Shown: positions 2,993 through 44,753 of the stretch, in pieces
Numbering within the stretch: position 1 is the stretch's first letter
Layout: the number at the start of each line of letters is the position of its first letter
Source of the DNA: a virus
Direction: 5' to 3' (one strand)
IMG/VR virus record: IMGVR_UViG_3300018412_000025
Span: 1 to 44,753 of that record
Length of the DNA stretch: 44,753 nucleotides
Made by a program: the position numbers and the translations under genes
Notes under the pieces: model-generated
The model's database searches: none
What the model saw: only the letters and a program-made list of their open reading frames with translations
Told to the model about the DNA's origin: nothing

Positions 2993-4383
2993 GTCTTGCA
3001 ATGAAACAAGGTGAAATTGTTGTTGATAATTTTGCAGGAGGTGGCGGCACAAGCACTGGTATTGAGCTTGGCCTAAACAGATACGTTGATATTGCGATTA
3101 ATCACGACAAAGACGCAATTGATATGCACAAATTAAATCACCCGGAGACAAAACATTATTGTGAGTCAGTATGGGATGTTGACCCTGTTGAAGCCTGCGC
3201 AGGCAGACCCGTTGGCCTCGCTTGGTTTTCGCCTGATTGCAAACATTTTTCAAAAGCAAAAGGAAATAAGCCGGTTAATAACAATATCCGGGGCTTGGCA
3301 TGGGTAGCTGTTCGCTGGGCTGCTCTGGTTAATGTACGTGTGATGATGCTTGAAAATGTAGAGGAGTTTTTAACATGGGGGCCAATCGGGGATGATGGAA
3401 AGCCTTGCAAAAAAAGGGCTGGTGAAACTTTTCAGGCATTTAAAAGCGCTTTAACGACCGGGCTTGATAAAAACCACCCGGCCATTGCCGATATTAAAAT
3501 GGCGCTTGGTGATGATTTTAATTTAGAGCAGATTGCAAAGGGATTGGGTTATCAAGTTGAGTTTAAAATATTGAAAGCTTGTGACTATGGCGTCCCGACA
3601 ATTAGAAAACGCTTGTTTCTGATTGCCCGTAAAGACAACGAACCTATCACCTGGCCTGCGGCTACTCATGGCGACGGATTGGAGCCATATAAAACCGCCG
3701 CCGACATTATTGACTGGTCAATACCAGTGCGATCTATTTTCAACAGAAAACGTCCTTTAGTCGAAAAAACATTAAAACGCATCGCAAAAGGCTTGGAAAA
3801 ATATGTTTTTCAAGCCGAAGAACAATTCGTTGTACCAGGCGAATGCACAATTCCGATAATTGACAGGCAGTTTGGCAAGTCAACGTGCAATCCAGTAACG
3901 ACCCCGCTTGGAACAATAACAGCAGGGGGGTTGGGTAAATGCGCATTAGTCACAAGCCACATGCTAAAACTGCGTGGAACAAATATCGGACATGGCACAA
4001 ATGAGCCGGTTCATACTATTTCAGCCGGTGGTCTTCATATCGGTGAGGTAAGGGCCTTTTTAGTTAAATACTATGGCACTGGTGGTGCGGTTAGCTGCAA
4101 TCAACCATTAGATACAATCACCGTTAAGGATCGTTTTGGCCTGGTCACTATCAAAGGTGAAAATTATCAAATTATTGATATTGGCATGCGCATGTTGGAA
4201 CCGCATGAACTGTTCGCCGCCATGGGATTTCCTGTTAATTATCAGATTAGCCATGACAGTAACGGGAAAAAATTATCTAAAGCTAAGCAAGTTGCTCGAT
4301 GTGGTAATGCGGTTTGTCCTACGATGGCGCAAGTTCTGGTGATAGCAAATGTAGAAATTAAACAAAGTCGCATTGCGGCATAA
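2989..4383 (+). CDS. DNA (cytosine-5-)-methyltransferase, phage type
   Basis: It transfers a methyl group from S-adenosylmethionine to C5 of cytosine in duplex DNA, probably shielding the phage from host restriction. Motif I reads DNFAGGGGTSTG (residues 13-24), and motif VI contains ENV (122-124). The C-terminal motif X region contains CGNAVCPTMAQVL. The catalytic loop reads SPDCKHFSKAKG (Cys84), so the usual PPC is PDC. The middle target-recognition region, about residues 235-390, carries repeat-like phrases such as TISAGGL and ITAGGL. No restriction endonuclease is adjacent, so it looks like a solitary enzyme. Confidence 0.92.
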   Translation: MSLAMKQGEIVVDNFAGGGGTSTGIELGLNRYVDIAINHDKDAIDMHKLNHPETKHYCESVWDVDPVEACAGRPVGLAWFSPDCKHFSKAKGNKPVNNNIRGLAWVAVRWAALVNVRVMMLENVEEFLTWGPIGDDGKPCKKRAGETFQAFKSALTTGLDKNHPAIADIKMALGDDFNLEQIAKGLGYQVEFKILKACDYGVPTIRKRLFLIARKDNEPITWPAATHGDGLEPYKTAADIIDWSIPVRSIFNRKRPLVEKTLKRIAKGLEKYVFQAEEQFVVPGECTIPIIDRQFGKSTCNPVTTPLGTITAGGLGKCALVTSHMLKLRGTNIGHGTNEPVHTISAGGLHIGEVRAFLVKYYGTGGAVSCNQPLDTITVKDRFGLVTIKGENYQIIDIGMRMLEPHELFAAMGFPVNYQISHDSNGKKLSKAKQVARCGNAVCPTMAQVLVIANVEIKQSRIAA

Positions 4384-13793: not shown

Positions 13794-14108
13794 TTATTCT
13801 GGCTTGACGGGCCAGGCAATGTCGTATGGATCAGTAAACATTTGCGGGACATCGCGTAATGATTGGCGGTAATCCTTATATTGCGCTTGTTTTTCCAGTG
13901 ATAATGGCGAGTCAATGGCTTGCGTGTGGTCAGCGGCAGCAACTAGCTCGTCACGTTTTTTACGAGCTGCGCTCCATTGCTGCTCATTCTCGTATTCTTT
14001 TTGTCTCAGGACAGACTCGATAGCGTCGCTATTCATGCCAAGGTTTAGCATGTATTCTCGGCTGGTGTCGGTGTGTCGCTTGCCTTGATTTATATATTCA
14101 AATCTCAC
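13794..14108 (-). CDS. Putative tail-fibre/tail assembly chaperone
   Basis: The 104-residue protein ends with YRQSLRDVPQ and IAWPVKPE, phrases seen in small phage tail assembly chaperones that sit next to variable fibre genes. The middle is helical and charged (VLRQKEYENEQQW). It overlaps the reverse transcriptase stop by 4 bp (ATGA), placing it in the DGR transcript. It could help fold the diversified fibre protein. Confidence 0.7.
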   Translation of the reverse strand: MRFEYINQGKRHTDTSREYMLNLGMNSDAIESVLRQKEYENEQQWSAARKKRDELVAAADHTQAIDSPLSLEKQAQYKDYRQSLRDVPQMFTDPYDIAWPVKPE

Positions 14109-15136
14109 TGCTTTCTCCTGAATGGCTCTTTAAAAAGAGCTTGTTTTAAATAATGTGCATCGGCATGACTGGCGTGACCAAGCCATGACTGGATATTTTG
14201 GTTAATATCAGAAAACTGAATCTCTCCGGCGGCATACTGCTTACGGTACTTTTTCAGTTTTGTTTTTATTCGTTTAACCGTGCACTTCCTTAATAGCCGG
14301 TGCGTTGAGTAGATTCTATAGCCTAGAAAATCCAAGGCGCGACCGTTCTTTTTGGCTATTGGAAACACCTGCGTTTTGCTGTTTGTTTTTAACCTTAATT
14401 GCTGATGCAAAAACAGCTCGATATCCCTTCGCCACTGGTGTAGCTGCGCCTTGTCATGATGGATAATTACAAAGTCATCCATGTAGCGAGCATAGTTTTT
14501 TGCTTTTAATTCGTGCTTGGCAAATCTATCTAGCTCATTAAGGTAGATATTGGCAAATATCTGACTGGTTAAATTACCAAGTGGGATCCCAACTCCAAGC
14601 GCGTCGCATGGGCTATTGTCGATAATATAAAACAGAATTTGCTTTGTATGGCTGCATCGTATCTTTGCGTCAATAATTGACTTTAGAATGTGGTGATCGA
14701 TACTTGAGAAGTAACGGCTAATATCAGCCTTGAGCGCAAAAGCTTTGCCATGCTTTCTTTCTACATCTCTGATAAAAGCTTGCGCCCTATCAGCCCCTTT
14801 GTGTGTACCCTTGCCTCGCCTGCACGCGTAAGAATCGTGAATGTATTGCTTGTCAAACAACTGCTCTATAATGTTGTATATCGCTCGATGCACCACCCTG
14901 TCTCTAAAGTGAGGTGCTGATATCAAACGACGTTTTGGTTCAAAAACATAAAAATGATGATAAGCCGACATTTGATACATGCCCCACATCAACTCATTTT
15001 GAATCTGAATTACGTTTTCTTCTAGGTTGTTGAAAAACGCGAGCGTGGAGCTTGCCTTGGTCTTTCCTTTTCTGCACTGGTATGCAGCGTCGAGAATATT
15101 TTCAAAGCTTATTATCTTATCAAAAGAGCAGCCCAT
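14105..15136 (-). CDS. DGR reverse transcriptase
   Basis: This enzyme copies the template-repeat RNA into cDNA with errors at adenines. Motifs in order: KADISRYFSSID, then IPLGNLTSQ (the LG...SQ signature of DGR enzymes instead of QG...SP), then the catalytic YMDD at residues 218-221, counted from the Met at 15136. That start gives 343 residues, normal for the family. The same frame is open further upstream to ATG 15376, which overlaps the avd stop, but that reading passes through the template repeat. I therefore prefer 15136 or a nearby start, although no clear ribosome site is seen. It lies downstream of avd and the template repeat, as in BPP-1. Confidence 0.93.
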   Translation of the reverse strand: MGCSFDKIISFENILDAAYQCRKGKTKASSTLAFFNNLEENVIQIQNELMWGMYQMSAYHHFYVFEPKRRLISAPHFRDRVVHRAIYNIIEQLFDKQYIHDSYACRRGKGTHKGADRAQAFIRDVERKHGKAFALKADISRYFSSIDHHILKSIIDAKIRCSHTKQILFYIIDNSPCDALGVGIPLGNLTSQIFANIYLNELDRFAKHELKAKNYARYMDDFVIIHHDKAQLHQWRRDIELFLHQQLRLKTNSKTQVFPIAKKNGRALDFLGYRIYSTHRLLRKCTVKRIKTKLKKYRKQYAAGEIQFSDINQNIQSWLGHASHADAHYLKQALFKEPFRRKQ

Positions 15137-15247
15137 CGACGCATCGATGGACTTGATTCGTGTTTCAGCAATTGCTGAGGTATCGGCATCCTTTTCAAAA
15201 TTGCACTGGCAGCACCCCGTGGGGTGATTGCTTCTGGCGTCATCAAG
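15137..15247 (-). ncRNA. Spacer region of the DGR template RNA
   Basis: The 111 bp between the template repeat and the preferred reverse transcriptase start matches the position of the BPP-1 Sp region, which primes cDNA synthesis with Avd. It contains a strong hairpin CACCCC/GGGGTG at 15213-15226. It is read in frame with the reverse transcriptase, but constraint as RNA is the better explanation. Confidence 0.6.
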
Positions 15248-15363
15248 AGCGGGACGAAAACCAATGTTACTGTTCGCATTCGAACGACCATTATTCAGAT
15301 TGAGCATGCCCAAGCCGGCGTTCGAGCCATTGTTCCAGTTGCCCCCGCGAAGCGGGAATCGGT
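15248..15363 (-). repeat. DGR template repeat (TR)
   Basis: This 116-bp segment aligns without gaps to 15804-15919 with 16 differences. In the coding sense 14 of these are at A in this copy (to G, C or T) and only two are at T. It carries many AAC/AAT codons where the target has other residues. AAY mutated to NNY can encode 15 amino acids and no stop codon. Confidence 0.96.
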
Positions 15364-15372
15364 CTCGCGTAA

Positions 15373-15729
15373 TCATAATGCCGATACCTGTTGTTTAGAT
15401 TTAACAGATTTGATCCAGCCGCCAATCATGCGCCCTATCTCAACAAGCATCTCGATCCACATTTGATATTTTTTAACATCTAAATAACGCAAGTCTTTCG
15501 CAAGCCTAACGCGACGTTTTAGTATTGCTAATTCAATATCAAGATCGGTTAATGTTGTCTTTTTGTGATAACGCTTAAATGCCGTAATAATCAACCGCTG
15601 CAACTGCAGCATTGATACGCGAATTTCAGCGCCCAACACATGCCTTTCGTGCCTTGGGAATTGTTTTATTGCTTGATACCCATATAACAACATATCGCGA
15701 CATCTATCTTCAATGATTAGAGCTGGCAA
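15373..15729 (-). CDS. avd: DGR accessory variability determinant (Avd)
   Basis: The 118-residue basic helical protein lies between the variable gene and the template repeat, as in BPP-1. The helices include LLYGYQAIKQFPRHERHVLG, a phrase typical of the four-helix-bundle Avd/S23-like family, and ILKRRVRLAKDLRYLDVKKY. Avd forms a pentamer that binds the template RNA and reverse transcriptase. Its last codons overlap an ATG that opens the frame through the template repeat. Confidence 0.93.
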   Translation of the reverse strand: MPALIIEDRCRDMLLYGYQAIKQFPRHERHVLGAEIRVSMLQLQRLIITAFKRYHKKTTLTDLDIELAILKRRVRLAKDLRYLDVKKYQMWIEMLVEIGRMIGGWIKSVKSKQQVSAL

Positions 15730-15754
15730 TCTATTTCCTATTTATTTTTTTAAA

Positions 15755-15770
15755 CTGCGCTACCGCGCAG
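15755..15770. other. Hairpin/cruciform downstream of the variable repeat
   Basis: CTGCGC/GCGCAG (6-bp perfect GC-rich stem, 4-base loop reading GGTA on the coding strand) lies 34 bp past the variable repeat. A hairpin with a 4-base loop at this position promotes target recognition in the BPP-1 DGR. No T-run follows on the coding strand, so it is not an intrinsic terminator. Confidence 0.7.
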
Positions 15771-15791
15771 AGAGCAAATATTCAAGTTACA

Positions 15792-17048
15792 TTACGCAAA
15801 GAAAGCGGGACGAAAACCAATGTAACTGCCCGCAATCGAACGACCATTCCCCAGATCGAGCACGCCCAAGCCGGCGCTCGAGCCATCGCCCCAGCGGCCC
15901 CCGCGACGCGGGAATCGGTTGCCATAGTTGCGCGCATAGATTGCACCGCCGACGGTTGTGGTTGATGCAGACTCAATGAGCAAGCGGCGGAGCAGTTCTG
16001 ACGGGGTGTAATTTGCGCCTTTGGTGATGGCTGCAAAATGGCTATTGGTCATGTACGGATAATCGTTGCTGTCATTATCAACAGGACCGTTTCTGTTTGT
16101 TACCGCATTATTTAAAATCGGTGAGCCAATGCTGCCGGCGCCGTCCTGACTGGCCGATGGCGAGTCAAAATAAGCCCCGTTTTTATGCCAGTTTACCTCT
16201 GCAATGCTCGGGTCATTATCCAGTGTCGTAATAATTTGACCGTCATCAAGCATCATTTGATCGATCCATTCGTAGACATTTCCGACTAAATCATGTATTC
16301 CCCATGCGCTGTGATCATGTGCCCAAGATGAAGGTCCCTTGCCTGTGTCTGTTCTGCCCGTGCCTGATGTTTCACCGGGCATGCCGTTATCACTGCGCCG
16401 AGCTGTTTCCAACTTGTTTTCATGGCTGCGGCCGTAGTTAGTGTTGCCGCGTGGAGTGGTGTCATTTGCTAATGACCACAGCGCAATTGCAGCCCACTCA
16501 TGTATAGACATCATGTGCCAGCCATCACCCTTTGTTGTGCAGAGTGCTTTAGCTGCATCGTAATTAACTGATGTGCGCGGTTGCACGCCGCCCACCACAC
16601 TGCAACCACCATTAGCTCCGGAAGACGCTAAATACTTAGCGATAAAAACTTCGCCGCGTGTCACACCGTTGCTAGCAAACATAGTTGGCGTGCCACTGCC
16701 GAGTTGCAGATCGACGCCTGTTTTTGCCAGTATAGCTGCATTCAAATCTTCGTAATTAAAGCGCGGAATGCGCACCATGATATTTGGATTGCCCTGGGCA
16801 TCGATTAATATTGTGTTGCGACCCCCGGATGCATCTTCGATAGCTTTTTTGTGGCCCTCGATAGCGTGTTCCGTCAGCTCGTCAACCTTCCCGTTGAAAT
16901 CAGCCTCGGCGCGACCTATTGCATCGTTTGCTTTTTTATCAAGCGCGCCCATCATTCCGCCGACTTCAGAAGTTTGCTGTTGACTAGCCGCGGTTTGCTC
17001 TTGTGTTGCTTGCTTAATAAGCTGTAGTTCTTCTAAAACGCTAGACAT
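15792..17048 (-). CDS. DGR target: tail-fibre protein with C-type-lectin/FGE-type fold
   Basis: The 418-residue protein is the presumed receptor-binding tip. I chose ATG 17048 because GGAGG precedes it; it overlaps the upstream fibre gene by 8 bp. Residues 1-80 are coiled coil, probably the attachment and trimerisation region. From about 115 onward it resembles the formylglycine-generating-enzyme/C-type-lectin fold, with WHMMSIHEWAAIALWS and GIHDLVGNVYEWIDQM. The last about 40 residues are the variable repeat and contain ten substituted residues relative to the template: R385, G387, D388, S391, V396, D398, G400, I405, G407, Y409. It ends GFRPAFFA, as usual for DGR lectin folds. Confidence 0.93.
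   Translation of the reverse strand: MSSVLEELQLIKQATQEQTAASQQQTSEVGGMMGALDKKANDAIGRAEADFNGKVDELTEHAIEGHKKAIEDASGGRNTILIDAQGNPNIMVRIPRFNYEDLNAAILAKTGVDLQLGSGTPTMFASNGVTRGEVFIAKYLASSGANGGCSVVGGVQPRTSVNYDAAKALCTTKGDGWHMMSIHEWAAIALWSLANDTTPRGNTNYGRSHENKLETARRSDNGMPGETSGTGRTDTGKGPSSWAHDHSAWGIHDLVGNVYEWIDQMMLDDGQIITTLDNDPSIAEVNWHKNGAYFDSPSASQDGAGSIGSPILNNAVTNRNGPVDNDSNDYPYMTNSHFAAITKGANYTPSELLRRLLIESASTTTVGGAIYARNYGNRFPRRGGRWGDGSSAGLGVLDLGNGRSIAGSYIGFRPAFFA
15804..15919 (-). repeat. DGR variable repeat (VR)
   Basis: The 116-bp 3' end of the target gene is homologous to the template repeat at 15248-15363. Its 3' part (coding sense, CATTGGTTTTCGTCCCGCT) is invariant between the copies and would hold the initiation-of-mutagenic-homing site. 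Differences cluster in the middle at template adenines. Confidence 0.96.
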
Positions 17049-17586
17049 TAACTGCCTCCAATTTGCGTAATCGTTCGCCCAGTTGCATTTGCGTATGAGC
17101 CTGTTTTGTTTGTACGACTTGGCTGCGGGTAAACGCAACCGCATCCATCATCATTTCAAGATCAATTATTAGGTTGAGGTTTTCGGTGCCAACAACCACT
17201 GTTACACTGTCTGCTGGCAAAGCCTCGACATTAATCGTCAGCCACTGCGCGACTTTAATTGCAGGGGTTCTATAACCTAAAGTCTTTCCTGCCAGAGAAT
17301 AAGCGCCGAGTAAGGTGCCGTCAGAGAGGAACACTCCAATCTCACGGATGGCATACTCTAAGTCACCATTAAATACGCCAGAAATGCGTAAGCTACTACC
17401 ATAATCTTGGTAGTCAGTAAGCTCTATACGTTCCATTTCACGAGAAAGTTTCGTTTGCGTTTTGCTGGGTGTGTAACTGCCATCCCCAAATGCTATATGA
17501 GTTATCTCGCCCTTTAATCCGTTTTCCTTTGCGGATAGCAGCTTGGCTAGTCCGGCTTCTGTAAATTGCAGCTTTAAACCTGCCAT
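17041..17586 (-). CDS. Tail-fibre N-terminal/collar protein (P2 gpH-like N-terminus)
   Basis: The 181-residue protein looks like the baseplate-attaching N-terminal domain of P2-type tail fibres, with the phrases ITHIAFGDGSYTP and EYAIREIGVFLSDGTLLGAYS. In P2 this is fused to a long fibre; here the frame ends and the diversified lectin protein follows as a separate gene. It presumably connects gpI/gpJ to that protein. Confidence 0.85.
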   Translation of the reverse strand: MAGLKLQFTEAGLAKLLSAKENGLKGEITHIAFGDGSYTPSKTQTKLSREMERIELTDYQDYGSSLRISGVFNGDLEYAIREIGVFLSDGTLLGAYSLAGKTLGYRTPAIKVAQWLTINVEALPADSVTVVVGTENLNLIIDLEMMMDAVAFTRSQVVQTKQAHTQMQLGERLRKLEAVNV

Positions 17587-29785: not shown

Positions 29786-30000
29786 GCCTCCTGAAAAATG
29801 ATTAATTAATCACCATCAGACGGTTCGAAGCAACTGGTGGTGAACTGAGCAAGGTTCGAACTACCGCTTCAGGAAACGGCCAGCCAAAAGGCTGCCTCAC
29901 CCAGCCCACCATTGAAATTGATGTTGCTGAGTATTACGCACAAAAAAACCAACTCAGGGTTGGCGCTATGCGCCTGAATATTACGGTGTTCGAATCCCGA
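29786..30000 (-). other. Untranslated leader of the packaging/structural transcript
   Basis: About 215 bp with no gene. On the - strand it carries hairpins CACCTG/CAGGTG (30001-30018, at its upstream edge) and GGCGC/GCGCC, then an intrinsic terminator at 29949-29963. Three GTTCGAA strings lie at about 29824, 29853 and 29991, but no tRNA cloverleaf forms. Confidence 0.55.
29949..29963 (-). terminator. Leader terminator (tR'-like)
   Basis: CCAAC/GTTGG with a five-base loop is followed on the - strand by seven T. The tail GGTTTTTTTGTGC is shared with terminators at 31758-31777 and 37425-37462. Confidence 0.75.
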
Positions 30001-30025
30001 CACCTGATTTTGCAGGTGCCCTATT

Positions 30026-42496: not shown

Positions 42497-44509
42497 TTAT
42501 TTGCTTATTTCTTTCTTACAGAGAGATTTGTAGTGAACTTTGAACTCTTTAATTGCAGAACGTTTATTGCCTTTTATCAGTATTTCAAAGTATGTTTCAT
42601 TTACAGTTGCCGAAACATGCCACATTTTATCCTTTTTCACTGCGTTAATTTCAATTTCGTTTGGTTCTGGCCATGGCAGTGTTTCCTTTTCTTTGATTTT
42701 TTCAGGTTGCTCCTGTTCAACTTGCTTTTCGTCTTTTTTGGCTTGCTCTTGCTCGGCCAGTAACTGCTCTGCTAATAATTCTTCAAGTTTTTCTTGGAAC
42801 TCGCTGAGTTCATCCTCTATCAGTTCTTGCTCTTGTTCTAGTTCCGTATCCTCTTCTTCTATTTCTTTAATTCTATTCTGGGCCTCTATTTTTTCATCAT
42901 CAAGATCAGTGCGTTCGTTAGAGATCTCTTCTGTTCTGCTTTCTATCTCTTCAATGCGCTCTTGCAGCTCAAGTATTTCACGCTCTTTTTTGTTTTTAGG
43001 CTTTTTAGGCTCATCTTTTGGCGGCTCAAATTTACTGATATTTATAACTGGGCCAACATAATTATATGTACTTTTAGGTCCAAAATCTTCGCCAAGATAG
43101 CCTTTAATAATGTTTAGATTGAGTTGTTTCCCGTCGAACAGACAGTGACGGCGGATGTATGATGATTTTATTTGTTCATGCAGCAATCCACCAGCAACTT
43201 CATTTTTTAGCCATTGATGTACCATTGCCATTTTGGGTGCGCGCAAGTAAGCGTTCATGGCATCATCGAACTGGCTCAAGTATTCAACAAGGGCTGCTTG
43301 TATTTTATCTGAGTCTTTATCGGTACTTTCTTCTTTCGGCTCAAATAATTTCACACTTGTAACATCGTTGTCTATTTTGAAAGAGTCATAGTGTAGTTGG
43401 GTTTCAAATAGTGAGTGGCCGAGTACTCTATGTCTGTATGCTGATCTAGATTCACCTGGTACTGCATGATCTTGATAAGTGACTTCAGTGTACAAGGCGC
43501 GGCAATCTTTTAAACTGAAATGTCCGCTTTGCATTAGTGAACGGACAGCAATATTAATTGTGCTTTCGTATCTGATGTGTATTGCCCTGTTGTGATAGTA
43601 GTCTTTAATATCGCCAGCTTTAACTGTACTCTCAGTTTTCTCACCAAGTACATTACGATAACTTAATACATCATCATCCGTTTTTTTTCTTAACAACTTC
43701 AAAGCTTTAATGACTGTTTCCGCTTTTATCATACAAGGTATTTTATAGGGTTTCATGTCCTCAAACAGATGTCTGTTTTTTGTTTTTAGCTGTCCGCTGA
43801 ATAATAGCGTTTCATCATCCACCGTTTTAAATTCTGCCGTTTTCATTATTTCTGTGAGTCGTCGGCCAGTAGATAATGCAATGCCGATACATAGATCACT
43901 TACTGTTGGGTTTTTACTTGTCAATAATCGCGTAGCTGTCTCTTTTACCCAATCAGGGTTTACCAATACCTGACTCTTTAGTTTTTTAGTAAGACTCTTA
44001 TTATCATCGTCACTTATCCAATCGCGGACTGCACCACGTGGCTCAAACATATAATAAGAGTGGTGCTCTATCTTTAAATTAAGCAAGTCTGATTTGTAAT
44101 CTGAACCTGTTACCGACTTTGCTCTGAGAAGTATTAAATTCTCTCGTAATTTCTCAATGGGCAATGATGTGTCGAGCATGCCAGAGAGCCCGTCAACACT
44201 GTCAGAATACTTACGTAGAAAGGCTTTAACGTGTGTATCAATCAAATGATGCTTGTAACCTAATGCTTTAATTGCATTACGATAATTTTCCATAAGCTTG
44301 CAAAAATATCGGTATGAAACTAATGGTTTCGATAATAATTCACCTGTTTTATTATCTGTTACAACACCTAATTTATTGCGTTGTGCTCTAGCCAAATTAT
44401 TACAACTATCTGTTACTCGTTTAGACCACCCTGATTTCTTTTCTCCTGCTGCCGCCTCTATATCAACAACTCTCTTAACTACGTCTGCAACTGATGTGAT
44501 ATTTGACAT
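42497..44509 (-). CDS. telN: Protelomerase (hairpin telomere resolvase, TelN/TelK family)
   Basis: It cuts the telomere palindrome and rejoins the strands as covalently closed hairpins. The tyrosine-recombinase core has Arg217 (TGRRLTE), Lys242 (GQLKTKN), a likely Arg337 (KDCRALY), His365 (VLGHSLF) and nucleophile Tyr374 (LHYDSF). The Arg-Lys and His-Tyr spacings (25 and 9) equal those in TelK. The N-terminal helical part spans residues 1-200. A DNA-binding stirrup-like region follows the core. Residues about 500-605 form a very acidic coiled coil, then a small C-terminal domain. At 670 residues it is longer than TelN (631). It lies next to its target. Confidence 0.95.
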   Translation of the reverse strand: MSNITSVADVVKRVVDIEAAAGEKKSGWSKRVTDSCNNLARAQRNKLGVVTDNKTGELLSKPLVSYRYFCKLMENYRNAIKALGYKHHLIDTHVKAFLRKYSDSVDGLSGMLDTSLPIEKLRENLILLRAKSVTGSDYKSDLLNLKIEHHSYYMFEPRGAVRDWISDDDNKSLTKKLKSQVLVNPDWVKETATRLLTSKNPTVSDLCIGIALSTGRRLTEIMKTAEFKTVDDETLLFSGQLKTKNRHLFEDMKPYKIPCMIKAETVIKALKLLRKKTDDDVLSYRNVLGEKTESTVKAGDIKDYYHNRAIHIRYESTINIAVRSLMQSGHFSLKDCRALYTEVTYQDHAVPGESRSAYRHRVLGHSLFETQLHYDSFKIDNDVTSVKLFEPKEESTDKDSDKIQAALVEYLSQFDDAMNAYLRAPKMAMVHQWLKNEVAGGLLHEQIKSSYIRRHCLFDGKQLNLNIIKGYLGEDFGPKSTYNYVGPVINISKFEPPKDEPKKPKNKKEREILELQERIEEIESRTEEISNERTDLDDEKIEAQNRIKEIEEEDTELEQEQELIEDELSEFQEKLEELLAEQLLAEQEQAKKDEKQVEQEQPEKIKEKETLPWPEPNEIEINAVKKDKMWHVSATVNETYFEILIKGNKRSAIKEFKVHYKSLCKKEISK

Positions 44510-44537: not shown

Positions 44538-44692
44538 AAAGATACCTGTAACAATAGTATTTAAACATAAAAAAGTCAACAACACCCGCAACAATAATAT
44601 TTAAAGATACCCGCCGCCTACCGCCCAAAGATACCCGCCACCCATCAATAAAGATACCTGCCTCCTATACCATAAAGATACCTGTGAATTAC
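44538..44692. repeat. Right hairpin telomere arm with iterons
   Basis: AAAGATACC occurs at 44538, 44603, 44627, 44650 and 44674; the last four are 23-24 bp apart and end 10, 34, 57 and 81 bases from the tip, the same distances as on the left arm. The tip GAATTAC|GTAATTC is at 44692/44693. Confidence 0.9.
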
Positions 44693-44753
44693 GTAATTCA
44701 CAGGTATCTTTATGGTATAGGAGGCAGGTATCTTTATTGATGGGTGGCGGGTA
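44632..44753. other. Perfect 122-bp telomere palindrome (hairpin read-through)
   Basis: Bases 44693-44753 are the exact reverse complement of 44632-44692. They match the right arm, not the diverged left arm, so they represent reading around the right hairpin or a right-right replication junction. The unit-length genome would be 44,692 bp. Confidence 0.92.

Follow-up and report, generated by a model that had tools for sequence, protein, structure and literature searches.

The viral DNA analysed here, IMG/VR virus record IMGVR_UViG_3300018412_000025 in its full length of 44,753 nucleotides (hereafter the window), very likely carries a complete and probably active diversity-generating retroelement (DGR) of the VHML-phage lineage, which would diversify the receptor-binding tip of a tail fibre in a telomere phage with a prophage in the form of a hairpin-ended linear plasmid. 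The evidence comprises the anatomy of the cassette, adenine-specific mismatches between its template repeat (TR) and variable repeat (VR), variation between sister loci, covariation in the spacer RNA, the predicted fold of the target protein, the telomeres, and conservation of the reading frame that runs through the TR into the reverse transcriptase (RT).

The cassette lies complete at 14105-17048 on the minus strand, where the original prediction had placed it, and matches at the level of open reading frames (ORFs), repeats and protein families bore out each of its parts. The window was compared with a clade of 28 loci having RT core identity of at least 66%; these share descent and so represent few independent events. 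The parts of the cassette are as follows.

15792-17048, minus strand: target gene (variable protein), 418 amino acids, with a long N-terminal helix and a C-terminal FGE/C-type-lectin domain (PF03781, E 1.8e-7; PHROG 2889, E 7e-147)
15804-15919, minus strand: VR, 116 nt at the 3′ end of the target gene, 86% identical to the TR
15755-15770, minus strand: hairpin CTGCGC-GGTA-GCGCAG, 33 nt past the end of the TR/VR match, with the GRNA-loop consensus, as a DNA fold
15373-15729, minus strand: Avd accessory protein (PF22296 bAvd, E 7.6e-32; PHROG 3206 'Avd protein of DGR', E 5e-47)
15373-15376, minus strand: ATGA, the avd stop overlapping the RT start codon, kept in 28/28 clade loci
15248-15363, minus strand: TR, 116 nt, in the same frame as the RT ORF
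15140-15247, minus strand: spacer from TR to RT core, translated in frame and a structured RNA
14105-15376, minus strand: DGR RT, 423 amino acids including the TR-encoded N-terminus (RVT_1, E 2.2e-18)

The order of these parts (target with VR, Avd, TR, RT) is that of the DGR of Bordetella phage BPP-1, as had been claimed, and the two elements also share adenine-specific mutagenesis and a GRNA hairpin. The likeness does not extend to the position of the TR, which in BPP-1 is intergenic, with brt starting 144 nt after it, and in the window lies in frame inside the RT ORF. In addition, the RTs are only 39% identical and the target fold is only distantly shared. The window RT is intact, with the motifs GIPLGNLTSQ and RYMDDF and the catalytic YMDD at about 14474-14485, and it matches the structure of BPP-1 bRT (8ub7, E 3e-64). 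Avd had no match among PDB sequences.

Of the 116 positions, 16 are mismatched between TR and VR and 14 of these are template adenines, exactly as originally counted; with adenine at 25 of the 116 TR bases, this corresponds to a hypergeometric p of 1.1e-9. Eleven residues are altered from TR to VR: ten through adenine-directed substitutions, the number first given, and one more, L381R, through a T>G change near the 5′ edge of the VR. The same edge change recurs in several relatives, as would be expected if cDNA replacement often ends before that position. Across the clade, the rate of TR/VR mismatch was 0.470 at TR adenines and 0.006 elsewhere.

Comparison of VRs between sister phages, which had been suggested as a check on the element, gave differences almost all at TR adenines. 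Two loci, L008 and L010, show 0/300 differences upstream of the VR, an identical TR and 100% RT identity over 900 nt; their VRs differ at 14 positions, 13 of them TR adenines. For L015 and L065, with an identical TR and RTs of 99.8% identity, the corresponding figure is 17 of 18. This divergence is the kind that a working DGR generates, and forms a signature of the lineage at the population level. Since TR adenines account for almost all VR differences between sisters that are identical in TR and RT, we conclude that the element is very probably active or recently active.

Two further observations concern the target genes of other loci. Six of them (L008, L009, L010, L014, L028 and L004) have near-identical TR and RT, yet in an ungapped comparison their sequences over the 300 nt before the VR differ at anywhere from 0 to about 180 positions, a pattern suggesting that the target gene has undergone exchange or indels while the DGR behind it was conserved. 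Locus L058 contains a near-duplicate of 669 nt (3712-4380), offset 557 upstream of the TR, suggestive of a duplicated target end and thus of a second VR.

The target protein was modelled by AlphaFold2 with a predicted local distance difference test (pLDDT) score of 87.6, and Foldseek matched the model to the variable protein TaqVP of Thermus aquaticus (PDB 5vf4; E 1e-36, template modelling (TM) scores 0.76/0.84), the match to Mtd being weaker. By sequence, too, the target has an FGE-sulfatase family match and 5vf4 is its best solved relative, sharing 33% identity and a common fold over nearly the whole chain. The target is therefore predicted to have a TaqVP-type C-type-lectin fold with the VR at its C-terminus, which supports the lectin-type fold proposed earlier; the protein ends GFRPAFFA, however, and not GFRPA as had been stated. 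TaqVP is a structurally characterised monomer that the available part of its description does not present as a phage tail protein, unlike the target, which sits as a receptor-binding-type protein inside a tail-fibre gene cluster, in keeping with its assignment to the tail fibre. The homologue in Pseudoalteromonas ACA1 has been named antireceptor and is abundant by mass spectrometry (PMC10612066). The target protein of the window would bind a receptor.

Two structured elements accompany the repeats. A stem equivalent to the hairpin after the VR, with a GATA or GGTA loop, is present in 27/28 clade loci as against 0.5% of random stretches. Phage DGRs, including that of VHML, have GRNA-loop hairpins with stems of 7-10 bp located 4-34 nt after the VR (Guo 2011, PMC3240598); the window hairpin fits these in distance and loop, and its stem of six pairs is one under the published range. 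The spacer RNA that follows the TR contains covarying helices, with 96.3% of cells paired, 15 pairs changed on both sides and none of 500 shuffles equal to it. An Rfam search for DGR RNA returned no match.

In all 28 clade loci the TR reads in the RT frame without a stop and is preceded by an ATG that shares the sequence ATGA with the avd stop, and RT is annotated from this start by depositors and the Prokaryotic Genome Annotation Pipeline (PGAP) in VP58.5, ACA1, ACA2, p0908 and pMR24a. The window thus does not have the BPP-1 layout with an RT start after the TR. There is no ATG, GTG or TTG from the TR to residue 112 in 20/28 loci, and residue 112 lies behind the invariant R102, G104 and K105. 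Because no later start codon precedes the conserved RT, the enzyme must start before the TR in these 20 loci, and the TR must therefore be translated there. Synonymous bias in the TR was excluded as evidence of translation, since the VR needs the same reading frame, and only the spacer was used. Spacer differences at the three codon positions stood at 661:708:1286 in the clade, compared with 60:77:72 in distant relatives with the TR out of frame, where it is found in other frames and with stops. Since the bias is seen in the clade spacer and not in the out-of-frame control, the spacer is constrained at the protein level as well as at the RNA level. An in-frame TR is already known as a trait: the ACA study described the TR as translated into an N-terminal extension of RT, which it called uncommon (PMC10612066), and TR/RT overlap is one of the layout classes in DiGReF (PMC3521204). 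What is added here is fixation of the trait across the clade and the dual codon and RNA constraint, which raise the question of how one RNA is shared between translation and templating.

In the mechanism that we propose, a cassette RNA (avd-TR-spacer-RT) would be transcribed together with the tail genes. RT would start before the TR, coupled to avd by the ATGA, with TR and spacer forming its N-terminus, so that one RNA would serve as message and template. RT and Avd would bind the structured spacer, cDNA would be primed next to the TR, and misincorporation would occur at template adenines. The mutated cDNA would then take the place of the VR, with the shared 3′ end and the GRNA-loop hairpin beyond the VR serving as guides, and up to about ten residues of the lectin fold could be changed. 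For priming, the chemistry of mutagenesis, the role of the hairpin, receptor binding and late-phase timing, we infer these steps from homology with BPP-1. It is conceivable, although we are doubtful, that template and enzyme are obligatorily one message, with TR and structured spacer translated as the RT N-terminus in translational coupling behind avd, and that ribosome traffic through the TR acts as a cis switch deciding between enzyme and mutagenic cDNA. If so, RT would bear an unmutated copy of the variable peptide.

The linear plasmid-prophage with hairpin telomeres that had been proposed for this virus is supported by a protelomerase and by both ends of the window.

42497-44509, minus strand: protelomerase (telomere resolvase; PF16684, E 1.1e-31)
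1-60, unstranded: left hairpin-telomere half-site, matching the reverse complement of the right half-site at 54/60 positions
44633-44752, unstranded: right telomere, a perfect palindrome of 60+60 nt with its centre at 44692/44693

Bases 44693-44752 are probably hairpin read-through, which would put the true genome end at about 44692, and the contig was assembled as far as both hairpin telomeres. In VP58.5 an 88-nt perfect palindrome lies beside the protelomerase, and no palindrome turned up in a search of the L016 contig-end and L062-contig stretches. Near the left telomere of the window there is also a 42-nt perfect inverted repeat (424-465) with 19-bp arms and a 4-nt loop.

Judged by its sequence, the window virus is of the marine Vibrio type and Vhmlvirus-like, with a P2-like tail module, N15-like replication and protelomerase, and the DGR. 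Matches to each of these modules, and synteny with VP58.5 and VHML, agree with the VHML-type phage first suggested. Vibrio phage VP58.5 (Vhmlvirus, NC_027981), a published linear plasmid prophage, has gene order, Avd, GGTA hairpin, protelomerase and a telomere palindrome in common with the window; its TR is in frame inside an RT of 81% identity to that of the window, and its own TR/VR mismatches are at A in 12/12 cases. The two are different species, with about 71% DNA identity over 65% of the region and differing telomere sequences. Vibrio phage VHML (NC_004456) has the target, TR and hairpin as in the window, carries a protelomerase, and is listed with its hairpin by Guo 2011 (PMC3240598). 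In the VHML reference (locus L091, 19977-20255), however, the frame is interrupted between the TR and the RT core, unlike in its intact relatives, either through a sequencing error or because the element has decayed. The Pseudoalteromonas phages ACA1 and ACA2 carry the same DGR as the window, with synteny in ACA1 and a TR whose translation to give the N-terminus of RT has been described explicitly (PMC10612066), but in contrast to it are P2-like, with a described integrase and prophage integration and no protelomerase.

It follows from these relatives that the joint presence of a DGR and a linear plasmid-prophage, which had been put forward as a new combination, is not new, since VP58.5 and VHML each carry both a DGR and a protelomerase; a DGR in two marine Vibrio phages has also been reported, citing the VHML and Vp58.5 papers (PMC6199706). 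Nor is linkage to a protelomerase general for this DGR: PF16684 occurs in 2/40 IMG/VR DGR-RT records, many of which are fragments, and the cassette is also found, with no protelomerase, in P2-like phages and on circular plasmids. What the window adds is a further telomere phage, assembled as far as its hairpin ends, with a complete and intact DGR.

Several points weigh against an active DGR whose TR is translated as part of RT. Two of the 16 TR/VR differences, one at the VR 5′ edge and one internal, are T>G changes that do not fall at adenines, and the internal one is left unexplained. VR hypervariability between near-identical genomes is a finding from sister loci, not from the window phage. 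An internal in-frame ATG at residue 81 of the window RT would make initiation after the TR possible. Finally, AlphaFold2 gave no folded N-terminal RT domain, residues 1-85 being disordered with pLDDT below 50 in a mediocre model, and because these residues are left unstructured RT may simply tolerate the TR-encoded peptide as a passenger. A rival reading is that the DGR is a fossil, anatomically complete but inactive in the window phage, with VR differences left over from past mutagenesis. The VR data for this phage do come from a single genome, and decayed members exist, as in proACA1-A with an RT frameshift (PMC10612066) and in the broken VHML record. Against this, RT, Avd, TR, spacer and hairpin are all intact in the window, the mismatches are still adenine-specific, where an old copy would be expected to show more background drift, and close sister loci show fresh VR divergence; we therefore regard a fossil as improbable. 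Somewhat less improbable, but still unlikely, is that RT in the window phage is made from an internal start after the TR, the in-frame TR being an untranslated, inherited coincidence. The ATG at residue 81 is close to where BPP-1 RT begins, and the TR would be open regardless, as it is needed to encode the VR peptide. This fits poorly with the 20/28 loci that have no start codon between the TR and residue 112, with the ATGA overlap kept throughout the clade, and with a codon-position bias that appears only where the spacer is in frame.

It had been claimed that diversification occurs during extrachromosomal lysogeny, and in its fullest form this would make the linear-plasmid prophage the main setting, with lysogens carrying a changing set of tail fibres. 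DGR mutation is detectable in lysogen cultures of hankyphage (PMC12135933), and supercoiling, which the BPP-1 hairpin required in vitro (PMC3240598), is in principle open to a linear plasmid that is covalently closed. The cassette, however, sits inside a same-strand late tail operon, and a search for a dedicated cassette promoter found none beyond chance, with 6 promoter-like sites where 8.9 were expected. Between the copies of the VP58.5 linear prophage in two isolates, no high-quality single-nucleotide variants were detectable, although repeats may hide VR changes (PMC4359782). Moreover, close relatives of the cassette occur in P2-like phages and on circular plasmids that lack a protelomerase, so the cassette does not depend on a linear state. 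That diversification takes place in the extrachromosomal prophage is thus not established, and we consider it very unlikely that the prophage is the main setting of diversification.

The neighbours of the cassette are tail genes on the same strand: a P2 gpI-like gene, a sheath gene and the two genes that flank it directly.

13794-14108, minus strand: tail fibre assembly chaperone, overlapping the RT stop (PF16778, E 5e-17; PHROG tail fibre assembly)
17041-17586, minus strand: short tail fibre protein resembling the P2 gpH N-terminus, upstream of the target (PHROG 3737 tail fiber protein, E 1.5e-70)

Elsewhere in the window, a C4 antisense RNA (RF01695, 29833-29916) and isrK (RF01394, 29943-30019) adjoin on the minus strand, a pair at 29833-30019 that we take to suggest an antirepressor control region of the P1/N15 type.

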